In this document: piece by piece, positions 31,152 through 58,936 of the stretch
Layout: every line of letters starts with the position of its first letter
Numbering within the stretch: the stretch's first letter is position 1
Program-made: the position numbers and the translations under genes
The notes under the pieces: model-generated
Databases searched by the model: none
Seen by the model: only the letters and a program-made list of their open reading frames with translations
Told to the model about the DNA's origin: nothing
Assembly: GCA_037043015.1 (NCBI GenBank)
Contig: CM073321.1
Location: forward strand, 26,549,510 to 26,613,509
DNA: 64,000 bases
Reading direction: 5' to 3'
DNA from: Bryum argenteum
Lineage: Eukaryota > Streptophyta > Bryopsida > Bryales > Bryaceae

Positions 31152-31591
31152 ATGGCAGGGCATTCAGGCGATTTGATCCTTTGTGTTTGTATTCCTGCAC
31201 TGCTTGTGGAGAGAGAAACATCCGTGCTTCTTTGATGGAGCATCCTCGTCTCGGTGTTGGAATTTGCATTTCGTGCAAGCTTGTGTTGGACGACGTTGTA
31301 TTCACAAAGAACGCCCAATACGATGATGAAAAATGCAATTGGTGTGGGCGAGTTGAGTTTGTGATCCCCTGTGATTATTCTAACAAGGTGTAGTGTGCAG
31401 CGTGTATCGCACGGAACAAGGGAGACGACTACCTAAAAGAGATGAGAGGCAAGCATTGGGGGTGCTTCAGCTGCAATACGTATGAAATAATGCCACTACA
31501 GACGATTTGGGAGGATTTTGTAGAATTCACTTCAGGTGAAGCTCGCGATAGCAACAGCAGTAATTCTGAGAGTGATTCCAACCATGACTAG
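31152..31591 (+). pseudogene. ADD-domain zinc-finger protein (E1 copy)
   Basis: ATG 31152 opens one frame of 146 codons. It has CTACGE, then HPRLGVGICISCK (a GATA-like finger), then CNWCG, VIPCDY, CAACIARNKGDDYLKEM and WGCFSCN (a PHD-like finger). The order and spacing match the ADD domain of ATRX and DNMT3, which reads histone H3 tails unmodified at K4. One TAG at 31391-31393 replaces the tryptophan codon (TGG) kept in the E3 copy. One Cys of the CD-C pair is also Ser here (CDYSN against CDYCK in E3), so metal binding would be impaired. A short acidic tail ends at 31591. Position inside E1, upstream of the transposase, suggests an accessory protein of the transposon. Confidence 0.7.
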
Positions 31592-31869
31592 CTGTTTGAT
31601 AGTTATAGTACTTGTATGGCTACGACTCACATTAGAAATGAGAGTTGGCTTTGAATGTGCTGGATTTTCAAAGACAAAATCTTGCTACTTTAGCTTGCAC
31701 CAGGCTACATCATTTGCTCCCTAATGCACATTTGCCAGACGGTCCTCAAGTCTTTGTGATCGCTTGTTTGATCAAGCAATGTGATTACATAAACCTTTGA
31801 CCAGAGTTTCCCAGTTTCAAAGCAACGAATGTCTCAGCTCTCTACATTCTAAATAAGCGAATGAGCACA

Positions 31870-31989
31870 AATCACACTGTGCTCTACTGTAGCTTTCATG
31901 TAACACCACTATAGAAGCAGCCCTAAGAGAGTTGGAAATCACACCTCAGGATTAGCGTTCTATGTGTTTCTACAGGTCGACTCTATGCT
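31870..31989. repeat. About 106-bp repeat, first unit
   Basis: The unit beginning gtgctctactgtagctttca recurs at about 33340-33450 and again at 33450-33525. The three units would form one tandem array if the 1.36-kb stretch between them were removed. Confidence 0.75.
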
Positions 31990-33349
31990 CCACTGTAGCT
32001 ATGAGCAATTCAACCCGTAGGAAGAAAAGCCCTAGAGTTGGGCCGGTTGAGAGTGGAGACACCTACCTAGCTCTTCCAAGCAATGGACTCTAAATCCTAA
32101 CAAGCATTCACAAACACCATGCATCCACCATCACACGATCATCAAGACACGAAATGCAATAAACGTCACAAAAAACACCAATGGGGAAGAAGAAGTACAA
32201 TCAGGGTCCAACCTCAGCTGGACCCTTGGCCACTAAAATGGCCGTATCTCCCTTGTCTTTGCTCCTCTTGAGGCAAGCTAGGAGTCTGCAGAGAGCTAGC
32301 TTGATGATGTACTTGAATCCGGAAGCACGTCTTGTGGTTCTTCCTACAACTTGAGCTATGCAGCCTCAAAGTTAGGCCTTCCATTTGCCCTCCACAGTAG
32401 ACATGCTTTTACTTAATCGATCACCATTCCTCCGTCCATGATCCAAGAAGAGGAAGCCTAGGCTCTTTGAAAAGCTGGCTTCAAGGCGCTCTTCTTTTTC
32501 AAAGGGCTTGCTCAAATTTGTCTGCTTTTGATAGAAATCGTTCTTCAAATCAGCGCCGCCTCTTCTGGCCGTCCGCCGCAAGCCGGTGAAGTCTTCTTGG
32601 GAGATCCGCCACAGCTCCCCCGTTGCTGCTCCTATGACCGCGCGCTTGAGCTTGTTGGAAAGCTGGCTTCAAGACGCTCCTCTCCATTGAAGGGCTTGCT
32701 CAAACTCATCTCCAGCCAAACGCTACACCTTCCCAAAGTTGGCAGATCCAGATCTTGGTCCGGAAATCCATTCTCCTATCTTCTACCCTAACCTACCCAC
32801 ACTCACACCCACATTCCACAACTCCAGACCTCCTACTTGCATGTCTTCTTTTCATATTAGGTCATACATTTCAAATCTCCATAGCTACAACCCTAGAAAC
32901 ATCTCTACTCACACATACACATCCAAAAACAAAAGAGCCAAAAAACTACCAAACCCTAGCAAAAAGAGAGAGACAAGTAAAAAGAAATGAGAAAGAAAGA
33001 AAAGATAAAGGGGAGAGGGGAAGCATGAGGGAGAAATCCTACTCCCTCACCTTCCTTCTTACCTTTCTACTTTCTAAATTACCTATCTACCTCTAACTCT
33101 AATACTACCTCACATCTAATATTCTTCAATTCTAACAATTTAGTTATCCTTCCTAACATACAATCATGTAATTGCTACTAATTTGCCATACTCAATGCTT
33201 TTCACAATCATTCTAATAACTTCCGAGCCTATTTCTAAAAATTCCAATTTAATGCATTTAGCCTATAGGAACCACACAAACTACCATTATCAAATGTATT
33301 TTGTATCTAGATATTCAATAATTAATACGTGAGCCATTTGGATGGCTCA
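31990..33349. mobile_element. Inserted segment inside a tandem repeat
   Basis: This 1.36-kb stretch splits the 106-bp repeat array. The flanks share gtagct on both sides. The ends are weakly inverted: tatgagcaattcaa on the left, and tgtgagccatccaa as the reverse complement of the right end. It contains an internal duplication (a gctggcttcaag phrase at about 32474 and 32660) but no recognised gene. A non-autonomous DNA transposon is the best reading. The short flank repeat leaves the superfamily open. Confidence 0.45.
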
Positions 33350-33525
33350 CAGTAGCTTTCATGTAACACCACTACAGAAGCAACCCTGAGAGAGTTGGAA
33401 ATCACACCTCCGGATTAGCGTTCTATGTGTTTCTAGAGGTCGACATTGTGCTCTACTGTAGCTTTCATGTAACTTCTACAGAAGCAGCCCTGAGAGAGTT
33501 GGAAATCACACCTCAGGATTCACTT
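33350..33525. repeat. About 106-bp repeat, second and third units
   Basis: Two further units of the repeat seen at 31870 (gagagttggaaatcacacct occurs in each), the third shortened. Confidence 0.8.
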
Positions 33526-33831
33526 ACCATCACTCCCTGGGCTATCAGAGAACTCCTGCAATTTGAGAGGAGGTTATGAGTTGTCTTTTGAAATGCAGAA
33601 GGTGCACAAGAATTGGCCCAACAAAAATGGACGTAATCTGAACATACTGAGCAACACCAGAACTGAGTAGCAAAGAACAGACCCCTCCCAAAGTGATTGA
33701 AGAAAATTTCTTAAGGCCACGCATGAGAACTGAACCCGTGACTCTTCCATCCAACGGTGTGATTCTTGCAATACACACTGTCTGCAGAGCCAAAGATATC
33801 AATAACCAAGACGCATACATGGATGCCAATG

Positions 33832-34262
33832 TCGGTGACGTTGATGAAGTTAAGAGCATGGTCTAATAGTAATGCATGTTGGTGCTCATTGTGATGTGCT
33901 GGTAAAGATGGGAGGTAAGGATGCTCGAGTGAATTGGTTTCTCATGAAAATGTAAGAGAAGTGCAGTGTCGGATTCCCTGAGAACTCACGTCGATTGTCA
34001 TGAGAATGAAAGGGAAGTGCAGTGTTGGTTTCTAATTCGTTGGAATGTCGGTGCCTTCAAGAGTACAGTGCTGCAAAAGCTGCCGGTGCTGCCGGTGCTG
34101 TCGGTGCTGCTGGTGATGGAAAGACGGGTTGGTGAGGTTCGATGGGACTCGAAGGTGAAATCAAGGAAATCTGGTGTGCTCTCCTTTTATACAAAAACGG
34201 AGGAGCGAGAAAGCCAGCATCTCAAAGCAATTCGTTGGCCATCTCTCATTCGAAATTTCTTT
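33832..34262 (+). repeat. Second copy of ADD-gene upstream region
   Basis: From gacgttgatgaagttaagag to the end of the leader, this matches E3 55910-56330 and, from 33880, E1 30753-31135. The ADD coding part is missing. The sequence jumps directly to the transposase side (gaatttttgaatacaaatta). It is probably the remnant of a second, nested element. Confidence 0.75.
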
Positions 34263-36244
34263 CTCTTACTAGAATTTTTGAATACAAATTACAGACGCAT
34301 ACATCTTGGGCAATTACATTGTCGGTATTTCATGATCAAATGTGAGTTGGTTGAGTATCATTTTAAAGGTTTCATGGCTGACAGCGCTCAAGCCAACCGG
34401 AACGCTGTTCGAGAGATTTACGGGACGGGAGACAAGACCGAGACACGCTACCTTGCAATTCGGTCGTGGTAGGTGTCAAGTGAAGTTGTTACAGATTCAA
34501 ATCGCAAGCCATGGAGTCGTGGCTGGCGTGGTGGCATTTTTGTTACAGGCAAGGGGGAGGCTTCATGAATCTTGTAAGCGTGCTTGAACTTTTGTTTCTG
34601 TGATATGCTTAAATATTTCTCTCAACGTGCCATCCACCACGGCACTTTCCATTCTTCTTATACCACTACTCTGAAGACATTCCTCCCTTGTGCCGCCACT
34701 CCCATAATTCAATTTCCTACACAATCGACATACTCTTGTACTCGCATTTCTTTAGATTTACGTAATAGTTGGTTTTCCATTTCCAACAGTCCAAATGACC
34801 TAATTTGACTTTGTGCAGGACCTTACTGATGAAAAGAAAGCTGAAATGCCAATGTGCAATTTGGCTGAAACCATCCACGCTGCGTGGTCAAAACAGTCCA
34901 GTAAAGACGTTTAGGATACTTTTGAAGCATTGGTGGACGATTATGTCAGGGCATTCATGCAATGCACACGCTACAACGCTTTTCTACACGGTAACCGCGG
35001 TGGAACTGGACCGGATAAGGACGTGTTGCTCTTCAGGCTCGCACATCGAAGTAGGAATCTGAACACAATGTACAAAGCCATGGAAGCCATCCCCGGTGTC
35101 AAAGACTTCCTGGTTGCGGACCCTAATTATGCTGGCGAGGAAGTTTTTGGATCAAGTAAAAGGCGTTTAGAAACGCAACCTAGTGCTGATGACGATTCCC
35201 ATCGGTTCGACAAGGTTAACTTCTCTAAGCCAAAGCACTCCAAAAGGAGAACACGCTCTCAGGGATCTCCTTCTACTCCTATTCAATTAGATGACGAAGA
35301 CGTGGACGATATTCCAGCGGCTGCGCCAGTTCCAACTGCACCCATTGTGCATGTCACTGAAGTCCAAGAAGATGATTGTGAGAAAGGAAAATTGCATAAC
35401 CGTCGTGTTCCTGCAAATATCAATCCGACTTGTATTGGAAACCGGAGCACATCAAAGCAATGCCAGCAGAAGATCAGTGGGCCAACACGCCCAGCACCTA
35501 CATTCCATGGGACTCGTCACTATCGCTCGAAGAACCACGACGTCAAGCAATTTTTCTACTTCTGCCCAGATGATCTGAACAGATGTGTTAAAGGCACCCG
35601 CAGAAGGTGGATTACGGATCTAATTCTTGATGTCCCAACAGTTTGGCCTGTTTAGAAAGGAACAAATCTAACTATGCGTGAGGTCTTGGCACTTCAACAA
35701 GCGGGATTCCAGCTACAAGAAAAACGACCAATGCCGATGGAGCGTCAATTCGGATATAACGTTGCCATTGCGGATCAAATTGAAAGCATCCCAATCCCAA
35801 TACAACCAGATAAGTACATGACGGTGCGCAACGGCAAATCCTGCAAGCGTTTCATCACTCGAAAGAACTCGGAGAAGCAGCTCGCAAGGTGGAAGTCGGC
35901 AACGCTTCTACACGCAGAGATGGCGCACATCACCCTTATTCCTAACCCAGGTATCGGAGCAGTCATTGATTTGAAATCAACCAGCGGGTCAGAGGCAGCA
36001 GAGTACAAGCTTACGATAGGATCATTCCCTAGCTGCACTTGTATTGATTTCACAGATATGGCATTGCACCACAAAGGGCGTGGAGGATGGTATAACTGCA
36101 AGCACCTATGCTACATTTTCCGCATGGTTTGTGGATTCTGACTCCAAGATGACCACCTCGTCGGTCGTCCCCACCTTAAGCTTCAACGAGATAAAGCGCG
36201 TGCTGCTTGCATGGATTTTGGATAGGATTCCGGTACGAAATTAG
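34263..36244 (+). pseudogene. SWIM-type transposase (E1 copy), truncated
   Basis: The first visible part is FKGFMADSAQANRNAV, carrying an Asp of the RNase H-like core, joined directly to ETRYLAIRSW by an internal deletion. A TAG follows at 34470-34472. An intron from 34574 to 34818 has a GTAAGC donor and TGTGCAG acceptor. The next exon has CNLAETIHAAW, DDYVRAF, KRRTRSQG, a linker, then SCTCIDF and YNCKHLCYIF, a CxC...CxH SWIM zinc finger. The conserved end LSFNEIKRVLL is reached after one frame change near 36139. TAG codons also occur at 34911 and 35653. The N-terminal third seen in E2b is absent. Such proteins catalyse cut-and-paste transposition in the nucleus. This copy cannot. Confidence 0.75.
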
Positions 36245-36424
36245 TAGTTTTTGTTCACGAAGGTCGACGTCACAGCCTTCGGTGTCTAGACTACCAAAGT
36301 GGTTTAACCAACATCCCACTTTTAAAAAAAAATGTTGTGACTTCAGATTTCCTTAATCATGAACATAGCTCACAAACATTTTGGATGCACTACCTTATCT
36401 TGAGTCTCGTTTTGTTGTTCAACT

Positions 36425-36575
36425 TCAACCCTCGCTCACTCTCACTCTGTTCACCCTTGCTCACTCTCACTCTCTCACTCTGTTCACCCTCTCTTACTCT
36501 GGTCACCCTCTCTTACTCTCACTCTGTTCACCCTCGCTCACTCTCACCCTCACTCTGTTCAACTTCTACCCTCGC
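36425..36575. repeat. CTCACTCTGTTCACC minisatellite
   Basis: Irregular tandem units of ctcactctgttcaccct and cactctcactctg lie just inside the right end of E1. They resemble the subterminal gtgag words of the element ends in the opposite strand sense. Confidence 0.8.
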
Positions 36576-36968
36576 TCTAACGACTAACGTCACCGTCAGA
36601 AACATCACCCCGTCACGGATATCTTACCCCTCTCACACCCTCCTTGCATGCCAGGGCGCACCAGGTCTAGCACGGTGGGCGCGCCCTTGTGTGGAACGCG
36701 CCCCCGCCTGCACAGTGCTCTCGCCGCCGCGTGAAGTGAGGACGCGCCATACCATTCTAGCTTATCGACGACCACCTCTACGGCCACAAACAATAACTTT
36801 TTTATACGGTCATGGGTTTATGCAATGAACCCCCGACCCTATGGCCGTCGCCTTCTATATTGATGAGTTTGATGTACTTTGCTTAATTTCCACTGAAAGA
36901 TCTGATCATTGCTCTTGAAAATTTGCCCATTGCTCGTGAAATCCTGCTCACCGCTCACCACTTACTGC

Positions 36969-38509
36969 TCACCGCACACATCGATACCACCTTGCCGGAG
37001 AGTCGGCTAGGACAAGCACTTCTCCTTCCTTCTTGCCTTTGTCCTTTGGGGTGGCCAAATTGGAAGGTCCTGCATTCGTCCTAGGGACGTCAACTAGGGG
37101 AGGACGCTTTACCGGAGTCTGGGTTGGTGTCTGTAGTGGGGCCAGAAGTGATCCGACAACCCTAATCCGGTCACGAATTGACTCGAGCACAGTGATGATA
37201 GTCTTCTTGCTGGTCTTGATCCTGGTAGTGTACGTCATGGTCGCCTTCAGGAATTTCCGAAAGGTCTCCGCTTTGAACACTTCCAACTTCGTAAATTCGG
37301 CCTCGCCCATGAGGATTACCTCCTCTTGGGCAGTCTCCAGAGCTTGCTTCTGCGCAGCCAGTGCGTCGTCTTTGATCTTGACGTGCTCCCTGAGGCAATT
37401 GTTGTCGAAGGCCATCTTTGTTATCTTCTGCTCCAAACCGCGTACTTCTTCTTGAGACGGCCTTGCATCTACCACCGCCTTCACTTGGTTGAGGTTCGCG
37501 CATTCTAACTCCTTCAACATGTCCTTAATGCACATCTTCAGTGCATAGTACCCCATTCGAGCTTCACCGAAGTAGTGTAGTGCGCTCATTATCGGATCCG
37601 TATCCGGAAGGCTGGCTGGTCTAGAAGGCCTGGCAAGGGTTTTGAGGACGGCCGGCTGAGATGCTGCAGCCACTCTTGCTGCATCAACGCCCGAACTCTC
37701 TCCTCGGCTCTGTGGAACTCCTGGCGAGTTCGGATTCGTCTCCTTCTTGTGCGCTTTGGGCGAAGGGGACGGCAAGATGATTACTTCCAGCATCGAATCC
37801 GGCCCCGGTGCCTTGTCCTCAGATTCCTCCCCTTCTTCCTTTGTATCTGAGTACGTACCCTCGCCGGCTTCCTCTTCCTTAAAATCTACATTTCCTTGGA
37901 CTTGCTGCTCCACGGCTAGTTTGTAATCTGCTTCCTCCCGCTCCGTGAGTACTTCCTCCTTCTTGTACAAGTGATACAAAAAGGCGTGAGAGGGCTAGGC
38001 CTCCTTTTACCTATGTTGTTGACGAGCTTCTAGACAAGGTCCCGTACAAGGACGCACCAGTCCACCTAACGTTCTCCTAGGAAGGCTCCCAGGACGGTGT
38101 TGGCAAGCCGGACAATGATCTAAAGCAGCTTCTCCTCATACAAAATCGACGCCAGAAACGCCAGCACCGCGTGCGTTCTAGGGTTGGTGCAATCCGCCAC
38201 TGCTAAGTTGTTGTGCTTGTGCCCATTTTCCTTGAATACGGCCTTCATATACTTGTGTTTTCGGCTGCACAGCCCCTTCCCATTTTCCTCGAAGCCGTAA
38301 ACCTTTTTCCACAAGTCGGCCGTGCACTTATCCGGCCAACCTTGAATTGTGCCTTCAAACTGATTTGGCACTCCCTCTTTTATCTCGCCCACCATCTCCG
38401 CGTCGCGCAAACACCATGACGTGTCCATCATCCCTCCACAACCCATATGGTCAAGATCTTGGGTCATAAACTTCTTCTCCTCTTCATCGGCCGGAATGCT
38501 TGGAATCAC
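36969..38509 (-). pseudogene. Coiled-coil protein of TE type, unrecognised
   Basis: ATG 38509 (MIPSIPADEEEKKF) opens a frame with QGWPDKCTADLWKKVYGFEE and AVLAFLASILYEEKL. It then meets three in-frame TAG codons (38120, 38066, 38030), with similarity-like sequence (IIVRLANTVLGAFLGER, KLVNNIG) between them. After a one-base shift near 37985 a second frame runs from 37979 to 36969. It has an acidic part (KEEEAGEGTYSDTKEEGEES), a Pro/Ser linker and a Gln/Glu/Lys-rich coiled coil, ending in a Pro-rich tail. I recall similar multi-copy proteins in bryophytes but know no function. A gag-like role is conceivable. No protease, RT or zinc knuckle is attached. Confidence 0.5.
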
Positions 38510-39781
38510 TAACTTAATGGAGACCTTTAGCGTCTTTTTGTTCTGAGCTTACGATGCAGTCATTGGAAAAAACCAAAAGGAAGTAACGAGTGGCTAGACT
38601 AAGATCGGCCAGGGAGTTCGGATCAGAAGGCAATAAGCTGGAAGGCAGGAACGCAAGAAAGCCTGAAGGCAGGAATGCGAGAAAGCAGGTGGAAAGAACG
38701 GCGGACAAAATGGATTATTTAGGCGGAGACAGATTCAAATCCAGCCATCATACCTTGGCCGTACTCCATCAGGACCGGCCAGGTGGGGAGCCGTCATTCG
38801 CCAATTCCGTCATTATTCTACTCCGGCCACTCCGTCCTTCTGCCGCCGTACTTAGAACCCTTATTCGGCCTCTGACAATCCTTCCTTCCATTTTAAATGA
38901 GAAGTACGGGTTTCAAAAGTAGTCATTCTTATTCTAAACTACTAGATAATGATTTGGAACATTATCCAAACTTTAATTTGTCTTATAGTATACGGCCTAC
39001 TACAAACTTAGGTCAGATTTTACACACTATACAAACTTCTAGTGCGCATTATAACTTATACTTTTACTGCGCATTATAACTTATACTTTTACTGCGCATT
39101 ATAACTTATACTTTTACTGCGCATTATAACTTATTACTCACACTATGCAATACCCAATCAACAATATAGGTTCCGACAATAAGACCCTTAAAATTTGCAC
39201 TCTTGAAGTATTACAGTTGTAGGACACTCAGAACGATGATACTTTTATCACGCTCTTGTAATATAAACATGTAAAAACTTTACATGCCCATCGGAGGAAC
39301 AATTCTTGCCTGGACTTAGTCGCGTACCATTTGGAGAATGGATCTTTCAGGTGGATGTGACAAACTCCCAGTGTGTTTCTGTAATAAGATGTATTGCAAT
39401 AGAGAAGCAAGAGAGGCTTAGGGAAGATTGTCACTAATAAGTACTCAAACGAGTGAAAAGCGGTCAACTTGAACTGCACAGCCTGTGATAGAGATGTTAG
39501 AATGGATGTTGAGTAAAAAACTTAGAAGAAGAGTCTCTTCAGAGAACGCAACTGAATTCATCTCCATTGAACCTGATCGCCAGCTTCAGTGGAAGGTCGC
39601 TTGCACTCTCCGCTTTGTACTTTCATGATCGAGCAGTCTCGATGAAACAAGACGAAATTCTCTTTGCTGAGCATGATTGCTGTTGCTGTTGGTGAGCTTG
39701 CAAGACGGCTGACGGAGTTCTAGTTTTGAATCGAGAGTGATGAGCTTGCTGATGTAAGACGAGCTGATCGAATTGGGCAAA
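38510..39781. other. Intergenic; short repeats only
   Basis: No gene is supported. A 25-26 bp unit (ggaaggcaggaacgcaagaa) repeats at 38640-38692. The 25-bp repeat at 39044 is listed separately. Confidence 0.45.
39044..39135. repeat. 25-bp tandem repeat, four units
   Basis: Units start with gcgcattataacttatac at 39044, 39069, 39094 and 39119 and are nearly identical, so the expansion is recent. Confidence 0.92.
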
Positions 39782-42240: not shown

Positions 42241-42263
42241 GTAAGATTGGAACTCGTCCCGGA

Positions 42264-44783: not shown

Positions 44784-44790
44784 CTTGTGG

Positions 44791-45542: not shown

Positions 45543-48500
45543 CTAAACTGTGGCATGCTCAAGAATGCCTCTCTCCATGATCATCTTCACCTCGTTGAAA
45601 CTTAGGGTAGGCGCATGGATGAAGAGGTCTACATCTGGTTCAAACTTGCACACTAACACAAAGACATAGTATAGGTGCTTGCAAGGTCTATACAGTTCTC
45701 CTCTCCACCCCAGTTTTGCAATCGTGCTTGTAAACACCGGACAAGTGCAATTTGGTAATGCACCTATTGTTAGTTGATAAATTGCTTGCAAATCTGACTC
45801 CATAGAAATAATGCATCCAATTCCTGGCGACGGGACAATAATGACCTTTAGTATCTTCGACGGGACAATAGAGCCCAACAAGACTTGGCTGAGGACTCCT
45901 TCAATCAAGCAATATGCCATAACTTCTCGTTCACTTTTGTCTCTTGTACAGCTGTCACACGATTAATAGAGGCACTAGCGGATGTGGAAGGTGAGACTAG
46001 GCGTTCTTCGTCTTCGTCGTCCTCGTGAATAGTTGTCAGACTCTCACCCCGACCCTGGGTAACCCTTTTGCCGATTCGGAGACGCGAAAAATTAACAGTG
46101 TCAGGCCTATGGGTTTCCTCCTCCGCTCCAATTGGAACATCACGCTTACGTTTCTTCGAACCAAAAATCTCCGCGCCCTCCAAGTGAGCTTCGCAAGTGC
46201 AAAGTATATCAGCCTCCGGGAACTCTATTACTGCCTTATTGAGAGCCGATGGATCGCCGGTTCTATGAGCCTTACGCTGGGCAGTGCGAAGTCGGAGTTC
46301 CTCCCTAGACGGACCATGTCCACTTGCTCCACCTTTGGTGTATTGATAGTAACCCAAAACTTGAAGGAAAGCACGAACGTAATCATCAACAGCTACCATA
46401 TAGAGATCACCACCCCTATTTCCCGATGCCTCCAACCATTTGTTATGAATGGATTCCGCAAGGTTGCATGATGGCATCCCAACTAGTTTTTCTGCAGATA
46501 ATTTTTGTTCCTGCAAGGTACATAAGTATTGATGTCAAGCTCAAGGTGTAAGAAGTAGTTTCGTTGACAAAACTGCCTCCCAGAAATAGATTTAAAAAAA
46601 AAAAAAAAAATCATCAGTGAAAACATATAATTTACTTTCATTCCGAATTAATTGTATAATTAAAGTTACTAGAACTCAAAAATTACCGTAGTAAGCATGT
46701 ACTTACCAGTTCCATGAATCCACCCACTGTCTGTAGCGGTGATGCCAATAGAAAAGCCATAGGCCTAGGTGGTAGAGGCCATTCTCGGAGGTGGCGTTTG
46801 AGGATGACTACCACGTTCTGATTGCCAAATACCGGGTCTCAGCTTCATCGAATGAACGAGCATCCTTGTATTGCTTACAGAGGACCCTATGTTGATCCTG
46901 CAATTCGTAGACAATGTACTTCTTGGTATGAGTCTCTAATGATTGCGTCCAATAAAAGTAACAAGTACGTTCTTGGTCTTCCATGGGAATTAAAGGATCT
47001 CCAGAGCCGTAAACAATGCGCACTGCGTTCTAGTTGGCTTGAGCACTGTCAGCCATAAATCCTTGGAACTTAGGCTTGGGTACTCCGTGCCTAGCCATGG
47101 CGCGGTTGAGATTCCTCCAGAAGACGAGTTGAGCTTCAGTATCTTCAGATTGAAAATCTGAACATGCAATGGTTAGAATGCGCTGGTAATTGGGGTCGTA
47201 CACATGGCACACCATGGTAGTCCATGGCTTGACCCGTTTCACATGGTCAAACATCATCCACGCATTGGAGAGGTCGCCTCCAGGTTGCATCCGACGGACG
47301 AGGTCGACACCACTACCGGGTCCAACTTCTGACATCTTAAAAATGAAGACTTTGTCAGAATCGTCTCCTTGGCTCGGGAACATGTTGCGTTGCACATACG
47401 CCCAATCGTTGAGTCCCCTAAGCTTCGTGATGCCATCAAGGATGCCAAATCTGCGCATGTACTTGAAAAAGTAGATACGATTCCGCAAACTTGGAGAGTT
47501 CAAGAGTTTACATTAATCAAAGACTGGCTCAAGTTCTACAAGAGTGAGGTGGCCGGATTTGGAGTCATTTTCGTCACATAGAAGAATGTTACCTACTACG
47601 TCCTTGCTAGTCTCCAAGGCAATTTTGGAAATTGTTGCTTGAGGGTTGCGGTAAACATGTTGTTCGATTAACTCATCTATCATTTGACGTGCTCATCTAT
47701 AGTCTCCGACTTTGACAGGGTTCTCGTGGGTACCGATATGCACACCAGCACGCTCTTGAATATCATCTCCAAAGACGTAGAAGATTTTGGCAGGACACAA
47801 AGCAACGCAGACTGGAGGTTCTTTGCAAATCTTATAGACCAGGGTGGACGATGAGGGAGGCGGTTCGCTCACTGAGAAAGGTTCTTTGGTGATACCTTCA
47901 AACTCCACCTCATTGACTCCCGTCGCACGATCCGGGCGTTCCAAGAAAAAACACTTGTCATTGTGGCATTGAAGATGACCTACGCAATTTGAATACCGAA
48001 ATGACAAGCTCAGGGTGTTGCTGATTTTAGTTGTCATCGTCCTAGTCCAGACATGTCCGTCATATCGTTTGTCCATCCTTTCCATTGATCTTGCATTCTT
48101 GAGGACAGCGGAAGGAAGTGTCGAGGGGAGGACATATAGGGCATCTCCGTTGAAAGATGGAGGCAGAAAGGATACTGTGTGAGTAGGGATGGAATTGAAG
48201 TCTAGTTTCTTGAGTATATTCTTGCTACCGGACATGCTACTAAGTTTGCGTAGACATGGGAGAATGTTTTTGGGTTTTACTATATGAGAAGATGGTGAGG
48301 GAGAGGCTAAGGAAGAGGGCGTTGATAGAGAAGAGTTCTGAGAATTAGAGAAGATGGAAGGAAGCTTCACAGAAGAACGACGGGGTGGAACGGATGGCTT
48401 TTGTTCATCATTGGATAAATCTGATATATCGATACTGACACGCTTGCCTGGTTCGATCTTGACACGAGCAAAGAGGGGACCAACGTTAGAGATCGTGGAG

Positions 48501-48837
48501 GAGCTACAAGGTGTCAGAAGTTGAGTGGAGGCGTTCATAACTGACTCAGTCAAACCGTATAAGCGATACTTTCCTGACTTCAGCTTCTACATGGTAGCGA
48601 TATTATCTAAGACGACATGTTCGACAACCGTGGAGTACTGGACATGAGAAGTATGTGGATCAAGAACGTCGGTTGCTAACCACAATGTGGAGACATCATA
48701 GCCAAAGCGGATTGCAAGCCAGGAAGAGGTGACTTCAGCCACACCATCAGGGCCAGGAGGAGACAAACAGGGACATCAGAGGCAACTGACTTAATCTCAA
48801 TCAAATCCGGACAAGGTCGCTCAGAGGAGGAAGCCAT
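45543..48837 (-). pseudogene. SWIM-type transposase (E2a copy)
   Basis: ATG 48837 (MASSSERPC) starts a region with DGVAEVTSSWLA and FGYDVSTLW, then VNEVEFEGITKEPFS and a Cys/His cluster (CVGHLQCHNDKCFFL). The core has LDGITKLRGL, FPSQGDDSDKVFI, DFQSEDTEAQLV, FMADSAQAN and GSGDPLIPMEDQERTCYF. An intron (46511-46706, GTAAGT to TTGCAG) leads to CNLAESIHNKW and, after an internal deletion of about 170 codons compared with E2b, to NCTCPVF and PCKHLYYVF (SWIM). Stops include TAG 48587, TAG 47030 and TAG 46808, and frame changes occur near 48770 and 47690. The Asp of ADSAQ is kept. It is a dead copy of a probable Mutator-like transposase. Confidence 0.78.
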
Positions 48838-49933: not shown

Positions 49934-51697
49934 CTAACGTGAGTAGACCCATAGAAGCCTTTTTTCTACGTGTATTAAAACGAAAATTTGATATAGTGTT
50001 GGAAATGTCCAAATTTATGTGAGATGGTCGCCAAGAAATATATATCATAGCCAAAAATTTCTTAGGAGATATTGACTAGCATGTCCTTGTGTTCTTGATT
50101 CTAACAGTCAAAAATTTCTTTCTCTCTCAACTTCTCTTATCCTAGAAATTAAGTAATGATTTATAAACATGTTCTTTGGACACACTCTGAAAACCACGCT
50201 TGGCAAGAAACAACGATAATAGAGTTGTCCTTGTAGGTGTCCACCCATACCATTCAGTAGGGAATACTTGTTTTCAGAGGGAAATGAAAGTAATTGAGGT
50301 ATCCGCAAAGTTCATCAGCCATTGAAAGAGAAACCTAGAACTCTCCAAATAGTTAACATGGATTAATGGGCTTGGTCATTTAAGAATTATTATGTGTGCA
50401 AGTGCTTAGTGGTCTTCAAAGTCATAGGAATCGTTTTTAAGTTCATTTTTTGATGCTCAATAAAATTCCACATATCTGGAAGAGCAATATGCTATTGCAC
50501 ACCTCAGAATCGCACGTCTTCGAGCTCCTTCAAACATAATAATTATTTGCAGTAAATAATAAAAATAAAATTGGAGGTATCTTATCTATAATTTAATGGA
50601 CTTTACGGAAAACACTCATGACACATGGGATCCTCATTATCTTAAATTTTACGCTGAATTCTCTAGAGAAAGCAACATCTTCATTGATATGGGGAAGGTA
50701 ATGCTCTGAATGAACAAAAATAATTAGGTGTTCCTTCCCTCTGTGAGGGTTTACTCGGGTGCAAAACTTTTATGATAATCTCATTGAATAATATATACCG
50801 TACTCGATTAGTTTATCCAAAATGCTAACTACTCATTATCATTATATTATTTTTATATCATGCATGATTTTTATTCGTAGATGAAACTGTCATTGCTTGA
50901 GCTCTCATGCATGTTTTTTTTTGTACTGAAATGTATTAATATTTTGTAAAAAGTAGAGGATATAATTTATGTTCATACAAAGCTATTTAGTATCTACTGT
51001 TCGCTGGTGGCTGTTGGCTGATGTGCCGCCCCAGCCAAACTCTCCACCTGGCTGCTGGACTCCATGCATAGCAGCCAAACTCCCCATATGGGTCAGCGCA
51101 CCGAAGCGCACCTTCTGTTACAGAAGCAGGGTGCTCGACGGGCACTCATTTTTTTTGCCCTCTGCTCGCTGATAGTGTCCTCCACATGGGTTGGCGCATC
51201 GAAGCGTGCCTTCTGCCGCGTAAGTAGGGTCATCGGCGACGGGCGCCGGTTAGTTTTGCCGAGTATAGCAAGTGTTTTGCTATGGGGACTGATTCTAGTT
51301 CGGAGCTGGTACGAGGGCAAATTGTCGTTACCGATGACCACCGATGGGCGCTGATTCCTGTTGCAAAGGGGAGCGAGGATTTCAATGTGAGGACGAGATC
51401 TAATTTGGCGCTGTTTGGAGGGCGGATTCTTGTTTCAGGGGGGGGGCGAGGATCTCCCTGTGAGGACAGGCTCCAATTAGGCGCTATTAGGAGGGCGGAT
51501 GTTTGTTAATAGCTCACAGCTACAGTTCCTGCTTGAGAGAATTCTTAGGTCTGATAGGAAGACTCGATCTGATGTCCACGGTTACAAAAATAGGTCTGGC
51601 TATGACGGTTGTTGTGATTAGAGTGGGAGAGGTAGCTTTACAAATTGACAACACTAATAGGAAGAGAGTACTTTGATTTTCGTTTCTTTCAATTGCA
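49934..51697. other. Intergenic; AT-rich, then GC-rich repeats
   Basis: No gene is recognised. The stretch 49940-50960 is AT-rich. Two diverged copies of a unit of about 100 bp (catatgggtcagcgcaccga, then cacatgggttggcgcatcga) lie at 51085-51270, and gcgaggatttcaatgtgagg with gcgaggatctccctgtgagg at 51372 and 51448. Confidence 0.45.
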
Positions 51698-51894
51698 GAG
51701 AGTATCAGATATGGCGAGTCGGGGAGGGGAGGTAACGACACTGCGCGAGTCAAGCGTCGATGTAAGCATTGACTCTACCCCCTCCACCTTCCTGATCTTT
51801 GGGAGGAGAAAGTTGCATTGGAAATCAAAAGGGAAGTTGGAGGTGACCAAGGAGGAGATAAACCCTAGAAATGACTTTTGCATTCCTCAGCAGG
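51698..51894 (+). CDS. Possible internal exon, unknown protein
   Basis: An open segment bounded by ttgcag|aga and cagcag|gtacgt includes MASRGGEVTTLRE, STFLIFGRRKLHWKS and KEEINPRNDFCIPQQ. Splice signals and frame fit an exon of about 65 codons. There is no recognised domain and no neighbouring exon can be named, so this is weakly supported. Confidence 0.25.
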
Positions 51895-51984
51895 TACGTT
51901 TATGTTCTCACAATGTCAGTTAGTCCTCATTTAGATTCGTCGTTCGGAATCCTCATTTGGAATCCTCGCTTTTGAGTATCTCAT

Positions 51985-53095
51985 AATCAACTTTCGTCGA
52001 CGAAACTGTTAGTGCGTGAGGTCTGACATGCACGGTTCCGGTACTTTCTCTAGTAATGCCTTTATATTATCAGTCTGGTTAGAACCTGGAGCAGGCCCTT
52101 GTGCTTCTCAACAACAGTTGGTGCTCCCTTTTTGGATTGTGCTGATGGACGGTCCTCGGTTGGGATCGCCGTTTTTAAGTGTGATCCTACCCAGTGACTC
52201 GGATGAGACGTGAAAAAATTGAGAAAAACCCGTGATTTGGGAGAGAATGCACACACTGCTGCATTTCTGGTCTGTGTCGATGGTCTGTCTGAGTTTGGAA
52301 TCGTCGTTTATGAGTGCTGTTTTTTCTTCTTTCGTCCACAAAACTGTCAATTTCTAAGCACAAAGAGAATGAGATTTCTTTGGCTAGTGCCTTCTGGATT
52401 GTGCTGATGGAGTGTCATCGTTTGGGATCCATTTTTCTGAGTGCAGTCTATGCCACTTTTGTCGACGAAATTGTCAGGTGTGAAGCTCCGACATGCACGA
52501 ATCCGGTACTGTCCCAAGTACTGGCCCTGGTATATTGCTCTGGTTAGGACTTGTAGTAGGCCCTTTGGGTCCTCATCAGCAGTTGCTGCTGCCTCTGTGG
52601 ATTGTGATGATGGACTGTCCCCGTTTTTAATCCTCGTTCGTGCTTGAGAGAATTGTTGGGACGCTCATTTCGTGAGCTCCGAGAATGGCATTTCTTTGGC
52701 TGTTGCCTTTCTAAATTGTGTTGTTGTACCGTTTGCGTTTGGAATCAGCATTTTGAGTGCCGTATATGCTACTCTCGTCGACAAAACTGTCAGGTGTGAA
52801 GCTCCGACATGCACGAATCCGGTAATGTCCCAGGTACCGCCCCTGGTATATCGGTTTGGTTAGGACTTGTAGTGGGCATCAGCCGGTGCTGTGCCTCTCT
52901 GGATTGTGATGATGGACCGACCCCGTTTTCAATCGTCGTTCGTGCTTGAGTGAATTTCTTGGGTCTATCATTTCGTGAGCTCCGAGAATGGCATTTCTTT
53001 GGCTGCTCCCTTTCTAAATTGTGCAGATGGACTGTCTGCGTTTGGAATCCTCATTTATGAGTGCCTTCTTTTCTACTTTCGTCAACGAAACTGTA
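51985..53095. repeat. Tandem repeat of about 310-340 bp, diverged
   Basis: A phrase like ttcgtcgacgaaactgtcag followed by tgaagctccgacatgcacga and ggtactgtcccaggta recurs at about 51992, 52448, 52771 and 53080, with partial units between (ctttggctagtgccttctgg, attgtgctgatgga). Spacings of 308-340 bp indicate a degenerate tandem array. It ends where the truncated copy of gene A begins. Confidence 0.65.
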
Positions 53096-53096
53096 A

Positions 53097-55508
53097 ATGT
53101 CATAGCAAGATTGCAAGCAAATCTCGAAAAAACACGAGCAATGTATGAGGAAAAGTTGGAAGAAAGGGAGCGGCTTTGCATGGAATATGCACGCCTGCGC
53201 GAGAAGATGCAAGAACTATTTCACCTATGTAACACTCCTGGAGAATCAGAGAAATTGGACATGGCGGATGTTGATAGAGTTGTCTTCAACCTTACGGAGA
53301 ACAAGACATTTGGAGAAATGTCACCGCAAGGCCCTCAACTTCGCCGCTTTGTAGAAGCTCAACCATGTCTCGTTGTTAATATGCATGACTTGGAATGGGA
53401 AGAAGATGCACGAAGTGATACCCAAAATTAGTTATCTCCCCCCCCCCCCCCACTTTGTATTTCATTTATGTCCTATGACAGATATAGTTCTTTACTAAAG
53501 CGAGATCAACAACTGCAAGATCGTTTGTCGCAGTTGTTTACCACTTACTATCATTGGAAGGAGGCATGTATACTTTCGGTGGACAAAGGTAGAGAAGTTG
53601 CAGCCGAGCTGGGGAAGATCGATAAGAAATTACTAGTGGAGCTAGTCGACAAATGTCGCGGCCCTAATTACTCCCAACTCTTTTTCTTCAAGTAAGCCTT
53701 ACTTGGTAGCGGAATCACGGCTTACTTTGTTGGTAGCAACCGGCCACAACTTAGCTAACACTGCACATGCCAAGCACACACAATGTTAGCACCATTTCTA
53801 GTCAAGGTGTCCAACCCACCTTGACTCCCCCAACTCATTACCCGGAACCCGTAAACCGGAACTCCCACAAAACACATGGGCATGCCACTTGGTGGCACGG
53901 GGCGGCCTTCCACACATGTCCAAGCTCCCAAGGGTGGCACTACTCACCCCCGGAGCTAACCGCCCTTGCATATTGTCCAACTCCCCACTAGTCCCCTTCC
54001 ATTCATGTCTACACTCTCCATTCGGGACATTACCGGAAACCGGCACTACTTTTCACGGGGACTAGTTTGGAGCGGGACACTTTTCCAACCCAATGTTTCG
54101 GGATGCACACCACAAACATCCCATAGTGCCCAAGGTGCGGGAGTGAGGCTCCATCCCAAGCCTCACCCCTTAGAGCCACCCCGGCTCTCCTCGGCACCAT
54201 GTGGAAGTGAGGAGGGAGACCACCCCTCCTCATAGTACTCTCTGGAGTCTTCGGTAGGCCCCCCCCCTCTTGTGTTGAGGGGCCTTCCGTGACACACTTT
54301 TGTTTTGGAAGACCACCCGTTTTTGCCTTAGCCTCAAAAACGGGCCGTATCTTCTTCTCGGGCTAACTTGAAGCTCAGTTATCCAAATGGGACGTGCGAG
54401 CCCATTTTCGACATCTACTCTTTGAGTAAATGTCGATAGACTCCTCACTTGTCCCAATCGGAGCTTCTATGTGGGAGCTATGTTCCTCTGAACATTCGGG
54501 CGTCCCGGGAGGCAGCAGTCCCGGAGTCCCGAAGTCCCGATGCTTTGGAGAGCCATATCTCCCAAAGCATTGCTTTGCTCCTCACGAGCCTTAGAATTTT
54601 GGAAAGCTCTTGTCCAGAGCTTCCCAAAGACATGCAACATGCCGCCATCCAAGAAGGACGACATTTTGAGTCCCGAAACGTAACACTCCCAAGTCCCAGA
54701 GTGTCCCGGAACGCGCTCCAACTTTGGAGAGCCATATCTCATGACTCACAACTCCAAATCGCGCGTTCTTTGGACCTATGGGTGCGTGCTTGAACAAGGT
54801 TTCCAACCATGTAAAGCACACCACCAAGTTCGTCCCGATCACGACGCCATTGCGTGCTGTTTGCTCGGGACTCCCCTCAGTCACTTCACCTTGTCTCTTG
54901 CCAAGCCCGGGACGTCACTCCCGGGGTCCTCTTGGCTCACCACGGTGTTCGGACATCCTTTTGAAAGGGATGTGACAACAAATGTTCCGTATGACTTTGT
55001 GGTCCGGTGCGGATACATTGTTTAATGATCTTCCTATGATGGACATTAAGATGAAAGATGACACTTCTACGGAGGTTGTAGATTGGAGAAAGGCCGGGTG
55101 GAGTTTCAAACATCACATGTTGGCACATGTTGATGTAGCATCGAGGACATTATTGTAGCCCAACCTCGCGCAGTTTGTACTGGATCACTCTACGTGTCCC
55201 ATATGCCTAAATCCATTTGGACAAGAGGGGGGGTGGGCTTTAGGCTCATGTGTCCATATGTATCATCCGCAATGTTTCTTCGTTCATTGTTTGACTCAAA
55301 GTCGTTGTGCTATATGCAAAGCGCCTTTTCAAGAGCGCTTCTAGGACATGTTCAATCTAAAAATTTGTATGCCGCCTTCTTGAGAGCACAATGCTGAGAC
55401 TACAGATGAGGTTCAATTTTGGAGTAGAGACCTTATTTGGAGTTGGCGTGGAGATGAAGATGATCTCGACAAGAGTATCCCTAGCTTTCAATTGAATTGG
55501 GAAACTCA
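53097..55508 (+). pseudogene. Truncated copy of gene A (coiled coil and RING)
   Basis: The sequence matches gene A from about 12509 to 13590: VIARLQANLEKTRAMYEEK, DMADVDRVVFNLTE, TYYHWKEACILSVDKGRE, then, after the solo LTR, DTLFNDLPMMDIKMKDD and a RING finger reading CPICLNPFGQ, CVHMYHPQC and RCAICKAPFQ in one frame. Here the RING is uninterrupted, whereas gene A has a one-base deletion within it. This copy lacks the N-terminal domain and the end, and it is broken by a stop at TAG just after QERF, by a frame change and by the LTR. It is cut off at 55508 where E3 begins. Confidence 0.78.
53654..54977. mobile_element. Solo LTR, 1,324 bp
   Basis: It starts tgtcgcggccctaattactc and ends gggatgtgaca, the canonical TG...CA of LTRs. 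It is flanked by perfect 5-bp duplications acaaa (53649-53653 and 54978-54982). Removing it restores collinearity with gene A at 13055-13075. No internal domain is present, so it arose by LTR-LTR recombination. The TGTCGCGGCCC start is reminiscent of Ty3-group LTRs, which is inference. Confidence 0.92.
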
Positions 55509-56960
55509 ATGTCATTACGGTGCGAGCAGTGAGTCGTGAGCCGTGAGCAGATTTTCATGAGCAGTGAGCAGATTTCAAGGTAATATTCTGGTCCAATAGT
55601 GAATATTAGTTGATTTTATTCAAACAAATTCAGTATTTGTGTACCCCTAAAGCCGTGAGAAAGCTGCCGATACAAAATAATTTAGATCCTACAACCGTGG
55701 TGAATTGGAATTTTTCGATGTTTGCCTCTTCAATGGTTTAGCTAATTTGTGAAAAAAAAACATGTTATGAAATTACAATAAAGAAGAAAAAGTTTCCGTA
55801 TTAGAGAGGGGATGGGTTGTGTTGGACTCGATGGGAATGGGTTGTGTCATAAGGAGTGTCGGAGAGTCGATGAATACATCCTATGTAAGCTCCGATTGAC
55901 GGTAGCGTGACGTTGATGAAGTAAGCAACATGGTCTAATTCTAATGCATGCCGGTGCTCATTGTGATGTGATAGTAGAGATGGAAGGTAAGGATGCTGGA
56001 GTAATTTGATTTCTCATGAGAATGTAAGAGAAGTGCAGTGTCGGTTTCCTTGAGAACTCACGTCGATTGTCATGAGAATGTAAGGGAAGTGCAGTGTTGA
56101 TTTCTAATACGTTGGAATGTCGGTGCCTTTGAGAGTACAGTGCTGCAAGAGCTGTCGGTGTTGTAGGTGCTGTTGGCACTGCCGGTGATGGGAAGACGGG
56201 TTGGTCAGGTTGGATGGAACTCCACGGTGAAAGCAAGGAAATCCAGTGTGCTCTCTTTTTATAGAAGAACGGAGGAGCAGGAAAGCCAGCATCTCAAAGC
56301 AATTCGTTGGCCATCTCTCATTCGGAATTTGTTACTTTTTCACTGTTAAAGTGGATCAAATGGCGGGGCATTCACGCGATTTTGTTCCTTTGTTTTTGTA
56401 TTCCTGCACTGCTTGTGGAGAGATAAACATCCGTGCCTCTTTGATGGAGGATCCTCGTCTTGGTGTTGGAATTTGGATTTTGTGCAAACTTGTGTTGGAC
56501 GACGCTGTATTCACAAAGAATGCCCAGTACGATGATGAGCAATGCCATTGGTGTGGGCAAGTTGAGTTTGTGATCCCCTGTGATTATTGTAAAAGGTGTG
56601 GTGTGCAGCGTGTATCGCACGGAACAAGGAAGACGACTACCTGAAGGAGATGACGGGCAAGAATTGGGGGTGCTTCGGCTGCAATACGTATGAAATAATG
56701 CCACTACATACGATTTGGGAGGATTTTGTAGAATTCACTTCAGGTGAAGCTCGTGATCGCAAAAGCAGTGATTCTGAGACTGATTCCATCTATGACTAGC
56801 TGTTTGATAGTTATAGTACTTGTATGGCCACCACTCACAGTTGAAATGGGAGTTGGCTTTGAGTGTGATGGAATTTTTGAATACAAATTACTGACGCATA
56901 CATCTTGGGCAATTACATTGTCGGTATTTCATGATCAAATGTGAGTTGGTTGAGTATCAA
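55509..56960 (+). mobile_element. Element E3: E1-related fragment with ADD gene
   Basis: The left end (gtgcgagcagtgagtcgtga, then gagccgtgagcagatttt) and the following 400 bp match E1 from 29831, without the TTAA insertion. It carries the ADD gene and then, from about 56870, the gaatttttgaatacaaatta segment that precedes the transposase in E1. The transposase itself is missing, and I see no right inverted end. It interrupts the truncated gene A copy. Confidence 0.65.
56360..56799 (+). pseudogene. ADD-domain zinc-finger protein (E3 copy)
   Basis: ATG 56360 (MAGHSRDF) leads into CTACGE, DPRLGVGIWILCK, CHWCG and VIPCDYCK. A one-base deletion near 56595 then changes the frame, after which VWCAACIARNKEDDYLKEM and WGCFGCN complete the PHD-like half, followed by a Ser/Asp tail ending at TAG 56797-56799. 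Compared with the E1 copy, the Trp codon (TGG) and the Cys of CDYC are intact here, but IWIL replaces ICIS, losing a GATA-finger Cys. Each copy therefore has different damage. ADD domains bind histone H3 tails in ATRX and DNMT3, and an analogous role here is inference. Confidence 0.7.
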
Positions 56961-57368
56961 TTGAAGGCACAAGCTATTTATCAATCACTGTGGTTGACTT
57001 GGTAGGACTGAAAGTTGACGAGTACTGTGATCTACATGGAAGTATGGATGCTGCATTGATGTGATGAATGTGTTACACTTTTGTCGAATGCAAACTTGTA
57101 ACCAGCAGAAACTTATTTGAAATAGGTGGCTCATATTTACTTGAGAAAGTTGCCATTACAGAACGACATGTATGCCCTTCACATGCATTCCAACCCAGTA
57201 ACCTGCTCACTGTTGGAAACCGATCTACTCGCTAATACTTTGATTTCGAACAAAATACTGTCGTACTGTTCGAAATCAAAACACCTGCAACTAGTTACAA
57301 TTGTCCCTTGTATCAAGAGTGCAATCACGCAAGTCGCCATTTCCGATTGCTACATTCTCGAAGTCTTT

Positions 57369-57776
57369 TTACGCCCTGACTTGTTCTGCAATGTGACCAG
57401 GTTCGTATGTGAAGCACATCCACTCGTCCTCAGTAAGAATGTTCTTGAGGTATACAAGGCCCACATTACAAATGTTACACGTGCGGCAGTATGAGTTAGT
57501 GCATGTGTCACGCAAAACAAGGTAGCCACCGTGTCCGCACCAGTTGCATTGATCGTGTGAGTAGGCTCCTTCGCCGTCATCTGTTACGGTCTGCAAGGAG
57601 AGAAAAGCAGTTGTGTATGGGGAATGCAGAGAATTTGGAACGGAATCGAAACAAAAATACTTGATGGTACATACATATGAGAATGGTGCTGAGTAGAGGT
57701 AGTCCGAACAAGATTTGCACATGGCCACACCAAGCGCTTTGTGGATGCCAATGTCACAGAGTCGTGTTAGATGCAA
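57369..57776 (-). CDS. ADD-domain zinc-finger protein, two exons, partial
   Basis: On the minus strand an exon carrying HKALGVAMCKSCSDYLYS ends at 57675 before a GTATGT donor. The acceptor is CCTTGCAG (57591) and the next exon has DGEGAYSHDQCNWCGHGGYL, VLRDTCTNSYCRTC, NILTEDEW and CF. The 84-bp intron is of normal plant size. The pattern is the second finger of the GATA part plus the PHD part of an ADD domain, closest in style to ATRX (CNWCGHGG). The first Cys pair would lie further upstream and is not recognised, so the 5' end is missing or disrupted by the GC-rich segment at 57783-57960. The final Cys pair is also incomplete (CFTY). Confidence in the family is moderate. Confidence 0.5.
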   Translation of the reverse strand: MHLTRLCDIGIHKALGVAMCKSCSDYLYSAPFSYVCTIKYFCFDSVPNSLHSPYTTAFLSLQTVTDDGEGAYSHDQCNWCGHGGYLVLRDTCTNSYCRTCNICNVGLVYLKNILTEDEWMCFTYEPGHIAEQVRA

Positions 57777-57782
57777 AGGCTG

Positions 57783-57965
57783 TTAGGAGACGACGTGCTG
57801 AGTCACGGCGTGTTGATGCGCCGATTGCTGAAGCGCGGATGCGTGGCGCGTCGCGAGGGCGGGCGGCGCGGCGCGGGATGATGGCGCGGGGTGACGGCGC
57901 AGGAGCATCAAGAAGTACCTTGGCAACTCTCGATTTAGGGCCACGATTGGCACCCTGGCCATGCT
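57783..57965. other. GC-rich segment, no gene
   Basis: A strongly CpG-rich stretch (gcgggcggcgcggcgcggga) stands out from its AT-rich surroundings. Open frames cross it on both strands, which is expected of GC-rich DNA. Its origin is unknown. Confidence 0.4.
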
Positions 57966-58393
57966 GCGCCCCCACTTTATCAAATTATCTACCGTAGCGT
58001 TAATGTATCGATACAACATCTAATCATTGGCCGTGAGGATTGTGTCTCACAGCTAGTTCAGCACGCAAGAGGGCGCCAGGCTTTGGTGCCACAAAGCTTC
58101 AAGTCATGTGCATCCCGTACATGAGTCAGGCCCAGCATGCGGTCAGTCTGGGCATTTGGTCAGCCTTGGCATGTGCTTACCCGGCCAGTCTTAGCAAATG
58201 CCGGACGTACGCTGTGGACCTAGCACACTTAAAAATTGAAGAAATCTTCGTAGGAGATCATGATCTACTTCTGACAAATAGATATTGTCTGACCAAGGAG
58301 TGGTTGAGAGATCATATTACATAAGTATATAGAGTGGCAACGGATTGTTCATTTTTGTATGTCATTGCTGCGAGAACGCTGAGATTCTTAAGT

Positions 58394-58936
58394 ATGGCTA
58401 CGGTCACTCTCAATGGTCCAACCTATGATTGTTTCGTCTGTGGAAATACCAGGTTTCAGATTTCCTTTAAGCAGCACCCGCGTCTCGTTGTTAGTCTATG
58501 TTGTCAATGCGGTCCAGACTATGCAAAGAAGAAGTGGACAAAGGTAGGATTGTTACAGAATGGAATGTGTTGTAGACGTCTTGTTGTCTAATGTTACTGT
58601 TTCCGTTCAAATCAATGAATGCTCACAACTGGTCTAATTCGTGTTCCACTTGTGTTCGGCAGAATGAGGCTCGGAAGGAAGAGTACTGCAGTTGGTGCTT
58701 CGACCATCACTACAATATGATCAGCTGTGCAACGTGCCCAAAGGTGTGGTTTACTAGTTGTGTATCGAACAACAATGGTGACGAGTACATACTAAAGATC
58801 CAACGCTCTGTAGAGATTTGGAAGTGCTTCAATTGTGACAACACCATGTACACCGAATCGACCAAGACATGGAAAGAGTTCCGTGACACAGCAAAGAACT
58901 ACGACCCTCCACTATCACCATCCATTTGGGGACGTA
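58394..58936 (+). CDS. ADD-domain zinc-finger protein, two exons
   Basis: ATG 58394 (MATVTLNGPTYDCFVCGN) begins exon 1, with HPRLVVSLCCQCG as the GATA-like half. The exon ends at 58543 before GTAGGA. The acceptor TTCGGCAG ends at 58662 and exon 2 begins NEARKEEYCSWCFD, then CATCP, SCVSNN and WKCFNCDN as the PHD-like half. The 119-bp intron is phase 0. Cys spacing is complete and there are no stops, so this is the best preserved ADD gene in the window. Its 3' part runs into the left end of E2b near 58938 and continues in frame to 59019, so the original C-terminus was probably lost by that insertion. Confidence 0.62.
58544..58662 (+). other. Intron of ADD gene
   Basis: AAG|GTAGGA donor and TTCGGCAG|AAT acceptor. 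Splicing joins the two zinc-finger halves in frame (phase 0). Confidence 0.65.

Follow-up and report, generated by a model that had tools for sequence, protein, structure and literature searches.

Stand-alone ADD-domain genes that travel with a putative MULE-like SWIM transposon family in Bryum argenteum

ADD-like genes at the locus and the element that carries them

The window examined here is a stretch of 64,000 nucleotides of Bryum argenteum contig CM073321.1 (assembly GCA_037043015.1, positions 26,549,510 to 26,613,509, forward strand). It contains damaged remains of a transposon, called family A below, whose copies carry genes for ADD-type zinc domains beside a putative transposase of the SWIM type. 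An earlier note on this DNA had placed four ADD-like genes in the window and all four were found, two of them copies of one gene (ADD-1), one a copy of a second gene (ADD-2) and one a minus-strand gene of a third kind (ADD-3), Table 1. All four are damaged; stop-free ADD copies are present at other places in the genome. As read from the sequence, the ADD-1 copy at 31152 carries a frameshift early on, a TAG in frame and one Cys-to-Ser change, while that at 56360, 92% identical to it as DNA, has a frameshift near 56600 and has lost one Cys. ADD-2 is open across its two exons, which are separated by a GT-AG intron between 58543 and 58663, but it has lost one PHD Cys and ends at 58930 in the tip of another element, E2b. 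Stop-free ADD-2 copies run on with SPSIWEDAVEECSEDNS or similar at this point. For ADD-3, the first CxxC was not seen in the frame read and further Cys residues are lost. The motif CDYC, given previously for the PHD-like half, is present in the 56360 copy and absent from the other window copies.

Table 1. Positions in the window of the ADD-like genes, element tips and transposase pieces discussed in the text.
Feature	Positions	Strand	Remarks
Left tip of family-A (ADD-carrying) element	29829..29884	+	AATGTGATTACGGTGTGAGCGGTGAGC...; aligns with the left ends of six other copies with differing flanks
ADD-1 copy	31152..31591	+	Inside composite element E1; damaged
Further, partial copy of the region upstream of ADD-1, joined to a piece of transposase	33941..34472	+	Inside E1
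SWIM transposase, C-terminal half, in E1	34831..36210	+	33% identical to E2b C-terminal half; CxC...CxH kept; stop-broken
Right tip of E1	36967..36993	-	Different tip family, AAGGTGGTGTCGGTGCG...; 43 sites
Left tip of second family-A element, E3	55507..55564	+	Tip alignment and genome-wide tip search
ADD-1 copy	56360..56799	+	Element E3; damaged
ADD-3	57372..57782	-	Two coding pieces, 57782-57675 and 57590-57372
ADD-2 exon 1	58394..58543	+	GATA-like half
ADD-2 exon 2	58663..58929	+	PHD-like half; 3' end truncated
E2b tip	58930..58966	+	GGACGTAGCCGGGG...; inserted into ADD-2
E2b SWIM transposase	59411..63030	-	Two pieces, 63030-61543 and 60871-59411

The structure of family A was read from six 10-kb loci elsewhere in the genome, L069 to L074. 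These share a sharp left boundary, CAATGTGATTACGGTG[T/C]GAGCGGTGAGC (in L070, GAGCAGTGAGC), with heptamer repeats and differing flanks. The gene order in clean copies is left tip, ADD-1 (145 amino acids), ADD-2 (two exons) and a convergent SWIM transposase, and all six loci are collinear from the tip through both ADD genes into the transposase on the opposite strand. Compared with L070, five loci on different contigs are about 90% identical in the transposase part and 77-97% identical in the left part, with no common break between ADD-2 and the transposase. At about 79%, L069 is more diverged, and ADD-2 is broken both there and in L073. The L070 transposase is a single open frame of 1193 codons ending 0.3 kb from ADD-2; in other copies it is interrupted close to a probable intron. 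The element is a large one of some 10 kb or more.

ADD-3 was not found in these six copies and its nearest relative elsewhere is only 54% identical over 57 residues, so that ADD-3 was rejected as a third gene of the cassette and the suggestion that it too travels with the element had to be dropped. Five ADD-like loci (C2:11570946, C3:29598734, C4:15880419, C8:3659948 and C11:2075305) are closer to ADD-3 than the ADD-1 copies are, and some of these may be host genes. To the right of the L070 transposase, on the plus strand at L070:10450-10870 (in extension L075), lies a further candidate gene, gene X, for a protein that is first basic and then acidic, possibly with a GC-AG intron; the region matches other element copies and the protein has no Pfam match. 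Arrays of (AT)n lie between ADD-2 and the transposase at L070:6058-6180 and L072:3853-3983. The L070 copy, on C10, sits beside or inside another SWIM-type transposase (L070:1-1674) that is 53% identical over 280 amino acids to its own. A viral source was also considered and rejected, as none of 72 pattern matches in viral_contigs was a relative.

Linkage to the transposase across the genome

Genome-wide searches covered the assembly of 258.8 Mb on 25 contigs. The genome strongly matches the SAM domain of LEAFY, a streptophyte gene (PF01698, E 1.1e-28; 0 of 14 control genomes), so that its host is most probably a streptophyte plant. The DNA search with ADD-1 returned 99 candidate places, of which 40 were scored, and these all match at 87-100% identity. 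The protein search with ADD-2 gave 243 candidates, and the 150 that were scored yielded at least 154 matches. For the transposase, 40 loci were scored of 575 candidates and, among the ADD matches listed, 32 of the 40 have a convergent ADD-2 within 5 kb, the spacing between the two genes being about 0.14-0.4 kb in 23 of these 32. The left tip of family A occurs at 75 sites (a reversed-pattern control gave 0); a same-strand ADD gene lies within 8 kb inward at 51 of them and any listed ADD lies outward at one. A same-strand ADD-2 was also found 0.5-3.5 kb downstream in 27 of 83 ADD-1 rows, at least two of which are duplicates. The central claim of the earlier note, that the ADD genes travel with a family of SWIM transposases, is thus borne out genome-wide.

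The partner is not the transposase nearest to ADD-2 in the window, that of E2b, an element within or beside which the note had placed ADD genes. The E2b transposase belongs to a separate family and is 43% (N-terminal part) and 35% (C-terminal part) identical to that of L070. Tips of the E2b type (GGACGTAGCCGGGG...) occur at 39 sites, the diverged window tip not being among them, and no listed ADD lies inward within 8 kb at any of the 39 (Fisher 5.7e-14 against family A). Two of the 39 have an ADD outward, the arrangement that the insertion of E2b into ADD-2 produced in the window, and these are read as nested or neighbouring insertions. Because the E2b family is ADD-free and E2b landed in ADD-2, the window's own evidence is partly misleading, and the E2b transposase was rejected as the partner of the ADD genes there. 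Within E2b, an (AT)n array lies between the tip and the end of the transposase gene (59274-59324). A second, degenerate E2-type SWIM transposase, E2a, lies at 45543-48637 on the minus strand and is 65% identical to E2b over its N-terminal part; no GTGAGC clusters were found near it.

ADD-1 also occurs in further repeat families. The tip of one of these, family B (GGACGTTGCTACCGTGTGAGC...), has 299 sites (control 0), and the comparison with ADD-1 used the 98 listed on C1-C3, all without mismatch. Among 50 listed ADD-1 places on these contigs, 20 have a family-A tip upstream, 14 a family-B tip, 16 neither and none both. The family-B tip lies 0.6-1.5 kb downstream of ADD-1 and was on the wrong side or strand in none of the 50. 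At three of five family-B loci (L026, L029 and L032), ADD-1 has the start of an E2-like transposase gene on its upstream side and the tip on its downstream side. A third setting, context C, was seen at six loci. In a nucleotide tree of 34 ADD-1 copies, the five family-B copies form one clade (support 0.92) within family A and the six context-C copies also fall within family A (node support 0.27), a nesting that depends on the midpoint root used. Most simply, ADD-1 would have started out as cargo of family A and been passed on later.

The presence of ADD-1 in at least three repeat contexts could also mean that the ADD genes form a mobile unit of their own which has repeatedly nested beside SWIM transposons, and the failure to locate the right end of the large element would fit this. 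The narrow spacing between ADD-2 and the transposase in 23 of the 32 linked loci, together with the fact that five loci run collinear from left tip to transposase without a break in common between the two genes, makes such a unit very improbable.

The other elements in the window are less regular. E1, previously taken as one element, has two tips that come from different tip families, and by eye the family of its right tip does not pair with the ADD tips; E1 was therefore rejected as a simple element and is treated as composite. An open frame of 341 amino acids (36969-37994, minus strand) overlaps its right tip. Transposase pieces at 24775-26660 match DUF659 (E 1e-34) and are presumably hAT-like.

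Domain identity and selective constraint

An ADD domain is a C2-C2 GATA-like finger followed by a C4-C4 PHD-like finger (PMC4249797). The assignment of the window genes to the ATRX/DNMT3 type held when they were compared with the sequences of solved chains. The spliced window ADD-2 matched only the ATRX ADD below an expect value (E) of 0.01, with a best value of 9.5e-6, and the 56360-56611 piece matched ATRX at 6.6e-5. A stop-free ADD-1 from another contig (L070:3352-3909) gave 2.3e-14 for ATRX (phmmer) and weak values for DNMT3A (0.09) and DNMT3L (0.27). With a profile of 29 ADD sequences the values were 4.8e-17 for ATRX, 2e-5 for AIRE, 7.9e-5 for DNMT3L and 3e-3 for DNMT3A, and a few other PHD or RING-like chains appeared up to E 0.008. 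The Pfam ADD models gave matches under their curated cut-offs, and no match at all to the window ADD-2 or the 56360 piece. The assignment is weakest for ADD-3, with E 0.012 for ADD_ATRX and about 35-42% identity to ADD-1 over about 52-57 residues.

Of 13 ADD-1 copies inspected, most have a Met in the reading frame (MAGHSADFDPLYLYSCTACGE... or similar), giving a protein of 145 amino acids with an acidic Ser/Asp tail; L070 lacks this Met start. Of 17 gap-free ADD-1 copies examined, 15 have all 12 presumed zinc-ligand Cys residues; the last one is missing from L037 and L074. The linker between Cys4 and Cys5 is 19 residues in ATRX, ADD-1 and ADD-2 alike. The His-Pro pair of ATRX (His189-Pro190) is retained in most ADD-1 and ADD-2 copies shown, and the DEQ ahead of the fifth zinc Cys is retained in ADD-1, the same place being EEY in ADD-2. 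An AlphaFold model of ADD-1 was of low confidence (predicted local distance difference test score, pLDDT, 42). As judged by sequence comparison, ADD-1 and ADD-2 are ADD-domain proteins with little else in them.

The ratio of nonsynonymous to synonymous substitution (dN/dS) was 0.21 for ADD-1 (21 stop-free of 28 distinct gap-free rows; 0.23 including stop-bearing rows) and 0.28 for ADD-2 exon 2 (27 stop-free of 30 rows; 0.30 with all rows), values that are pulled down by the choice of rows for similarity and intactness. Rows with gaps or partial coverage, including both window ADD-1 copies, were dropped, which favours intact copies, and the ADD-2 loci were picked by protein similarity, which also favours a low ratio. 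The transposase gave 0.11-0.36. ADD-1 and ADD-2 are under selective constraint. By group, ADD-1 gave 0.17 in young family A (7 copies), 0.39 in context C (5) and 0.56 in family B (5, one with a stop). Constraint is thus strongest where the full element is present and looser in context C and family B, the pattern to be expected were ADD-1 of use to the autonomous element.

These values bear on whether the ADD genes are merely captured fragments of host genes, hitchhiking as in Pack-MULEs and of no function for the element. Mutator-like elements (MULEs) tend to pick up host gene fragments (PMC6446971), several ADD copies are broken, and the family-B copies, with their ratio of 0.56 over five copies, look as if an ADD-1 segment had taken the place of part of a transposase gene. 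Ratios of 0.17-0.28 over dispersed copies are not what hitchhikers should give, however, and neither is the holding of two divergent ADD paralogues, ADD-1 and ADD-2 exon 2 being only about 35% identical, in one order. For family A this explanation is already disfavoured and, taken overall, it is improbable.

Possible role of the ADD proteins

The reading preferred here is that a plant family of MULE-like DNA transposons encodes, besides its SWIM transposase, two short stand-alone ADD proteins as conserved accessory genes. The ADD-1 and ADD-2 proteins would bind histone H3 tails, docking at the element's own silenced chromatin or blocking it by occupying tails that host readers need, so that the element's genes stay expressible. 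This would be anti-silencing comparable to that of VANC in VANDAL elements. Since no effector domain was seen, docking or blocking is more plausible than an enzymatic role; tethering of the transposase to chromatin by the ADD proteins is a close second. On the evidence of sequence, we put the probability of this reading, with docking or blocking as the most likely role and tethering next, at roughly 0.45. The narrower proposal that free ADD-type H3-tail readers locally block host silencing at the element's own copies, as a module passed between transposon families within one genome, is more tentative.

Several observations weigh against the preferred reading. No right end, pair of terminal inverted repeats or target duplication of the 8-11 bp typical of MULEs was found, the extensions L075 and L076 remaining within repeat, and a search for the left tip in inverted orientation, allowing at most 3 mismatches, gave no inward pair by eye among the 75 tip sites. 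No listed ADD was in place at 8 of the 40 transposase loci or at 24 of the 75 tips, which may either be without an ADD or have one that is not among the matches listed. The transposase is divergent: no Pfam MULE model matches it in scans at E up to 1 and up to 10, the SWIM model PF04434 reaches only E 0.054 and 0.076, below its cut-off, in two of four C-termini scanned, and it is for this reason that the element is named MULE-like and not MULE. NCBIfam gave nothing useful and an AlphaFold model of the transposase core was of low confidence (pLDDT 40). The CTC and CKH of the CxC...CxH motif are invariant in six transposase sequences, and motifs found by eye (D...MADSAQAN...NLSE) are taken by us to resemble the MULE triad.

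Two further points on the same side concern the genomic distribution and the histone pocket, and each leads to an alternative. Contig C1 (44.1 Mb, 17% of the assembly; at a guess, it may be a repeat-rich or sex chromosome) holds 34 of the 75 family-A tips and 30 of the 39 E2 tips. Family A is therefore less concentrated on this contig, rich in transposable elements, than the ADD-free E2 family (Fisher p=0.0014), although age differences confound the comparison, and the result gives no support for ADD-guided targeting. Targeting would mean that ADD-1 and ADD-2 bridge the transposase to H3 tails without K4 methylation and direct insertion to safe chromatin instead of active promoters. The ATRX ADD reads unmethylated K4 together with K9me3 (PMC4249797), and the convergence of ADD-2 and the transposase, seen at 32 of the 40 loci and with a gap of no more than about 0.4 kb at 23 of these, would suit such a partnership. 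With the C1 distribution set against these points, targeting is possible but doubtful.

The residues of the ATRX K9me3 pocket are Tyr203, Ile209 and Ala224 (PMC3799622). When the 19-residue linker is aligned without gaps and the numbering is taken from His189-Pro190, these positions are V/F/G in ADD-1 and D/W/F in ADD-2, so that reading of H3K9me3 is not predicted for either protein. This loss would be explained if the domain no longer binds histones and is instead a zinc-bound module of the transposition complex that binds DNA or protein, for example on the GTGAGC repeats of the tips; repeats of this type are common to the family A, B and E2 tips, and the families that share ADD-1 have related tips. 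The retention of the zinc ligands and of the ATRX linker length speaks against it. So do the E2 tips, which are of the same kind and have no listed ADD inward, so that an ADD is not needed to recognise such tips. A DNA- or protein-binding module is accordingly unlikely.

The preferred reading places the element in a kind already known, that of transposons with chromatin-related accessory genes, of which the ADD cargo is a new variation. VANDAL21/Hiun of Arabidopsis is described as encoding the transposase VANA, VANB and the anti-silencing protein VANC, which binds to DNA motifs and causes DNA methylation to be lost (PMC5735166, PMC10398659), and VANDAL transposases appear as SWIM-type in the table of PMC6446971. 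The likeness, drawn by description, is that of a plant transposon with a SWIM-type transposase, extra conserved genes beside it and tandem repeats in its non-coding parts; the accessory proteins here are ADD domains, whereas VANC is a binder of DNA motifs. Other MULE-type elements encode chromatin-type domains, namely SET in 14 members of MULE-Phytophthora_1 and a PHD finger in the Rehavkus transposase, and the available text of this catalogue lists PHD and SET but no ADD (PMC6446971). SET is an enzyme domain, unlike the two-part ADD, and the Rehavkus finger lies within the transposase itself, whereas separate genes encode the ADD domains. Chromoviruses, retrotransposons that bear a chromodomain, are another case of a mobile element with a histone reader. 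There the reader is fused to the integrase, whereas here it would be a free protein of a DNA transposon.

With the ADD domains of ATRX and DNMT3 and with Drosophila dAdd1, which is an ADD without a helicase (PMC4249797), the transposon proteins share the two fingers, the ATRX linker length and, mostly, the His-Pro pair. They differ from ATRX and DNMT3 in being transposon-encoded, 145 amino acids long, free of helicase and methyltransferase and changed at the K9me3-pocket residues. No ADD-bearing DNA transposon was found in a literature search over titles and the starts of abstracts, most subscription papers being outside its scope.

Self-made anti-silencing proteins are known in few transposons, VANC being one and Spm TnpA and MuDR MURA others (PMC10398659). 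Two ADD genes kept under selection would suggest that histone reading, too, is a level at which transposons arm themselves. In animals, ADD domains have a part in positioning DNA methylation and ATRX on chromatin. The transposon ADD would be a minimal ADD protein of natural origin that could be studied, and it makes directly testable whether a transposon-borne reader alters the chromatin of its own copies. This transposon may bring its own means of coping with host chromatin.

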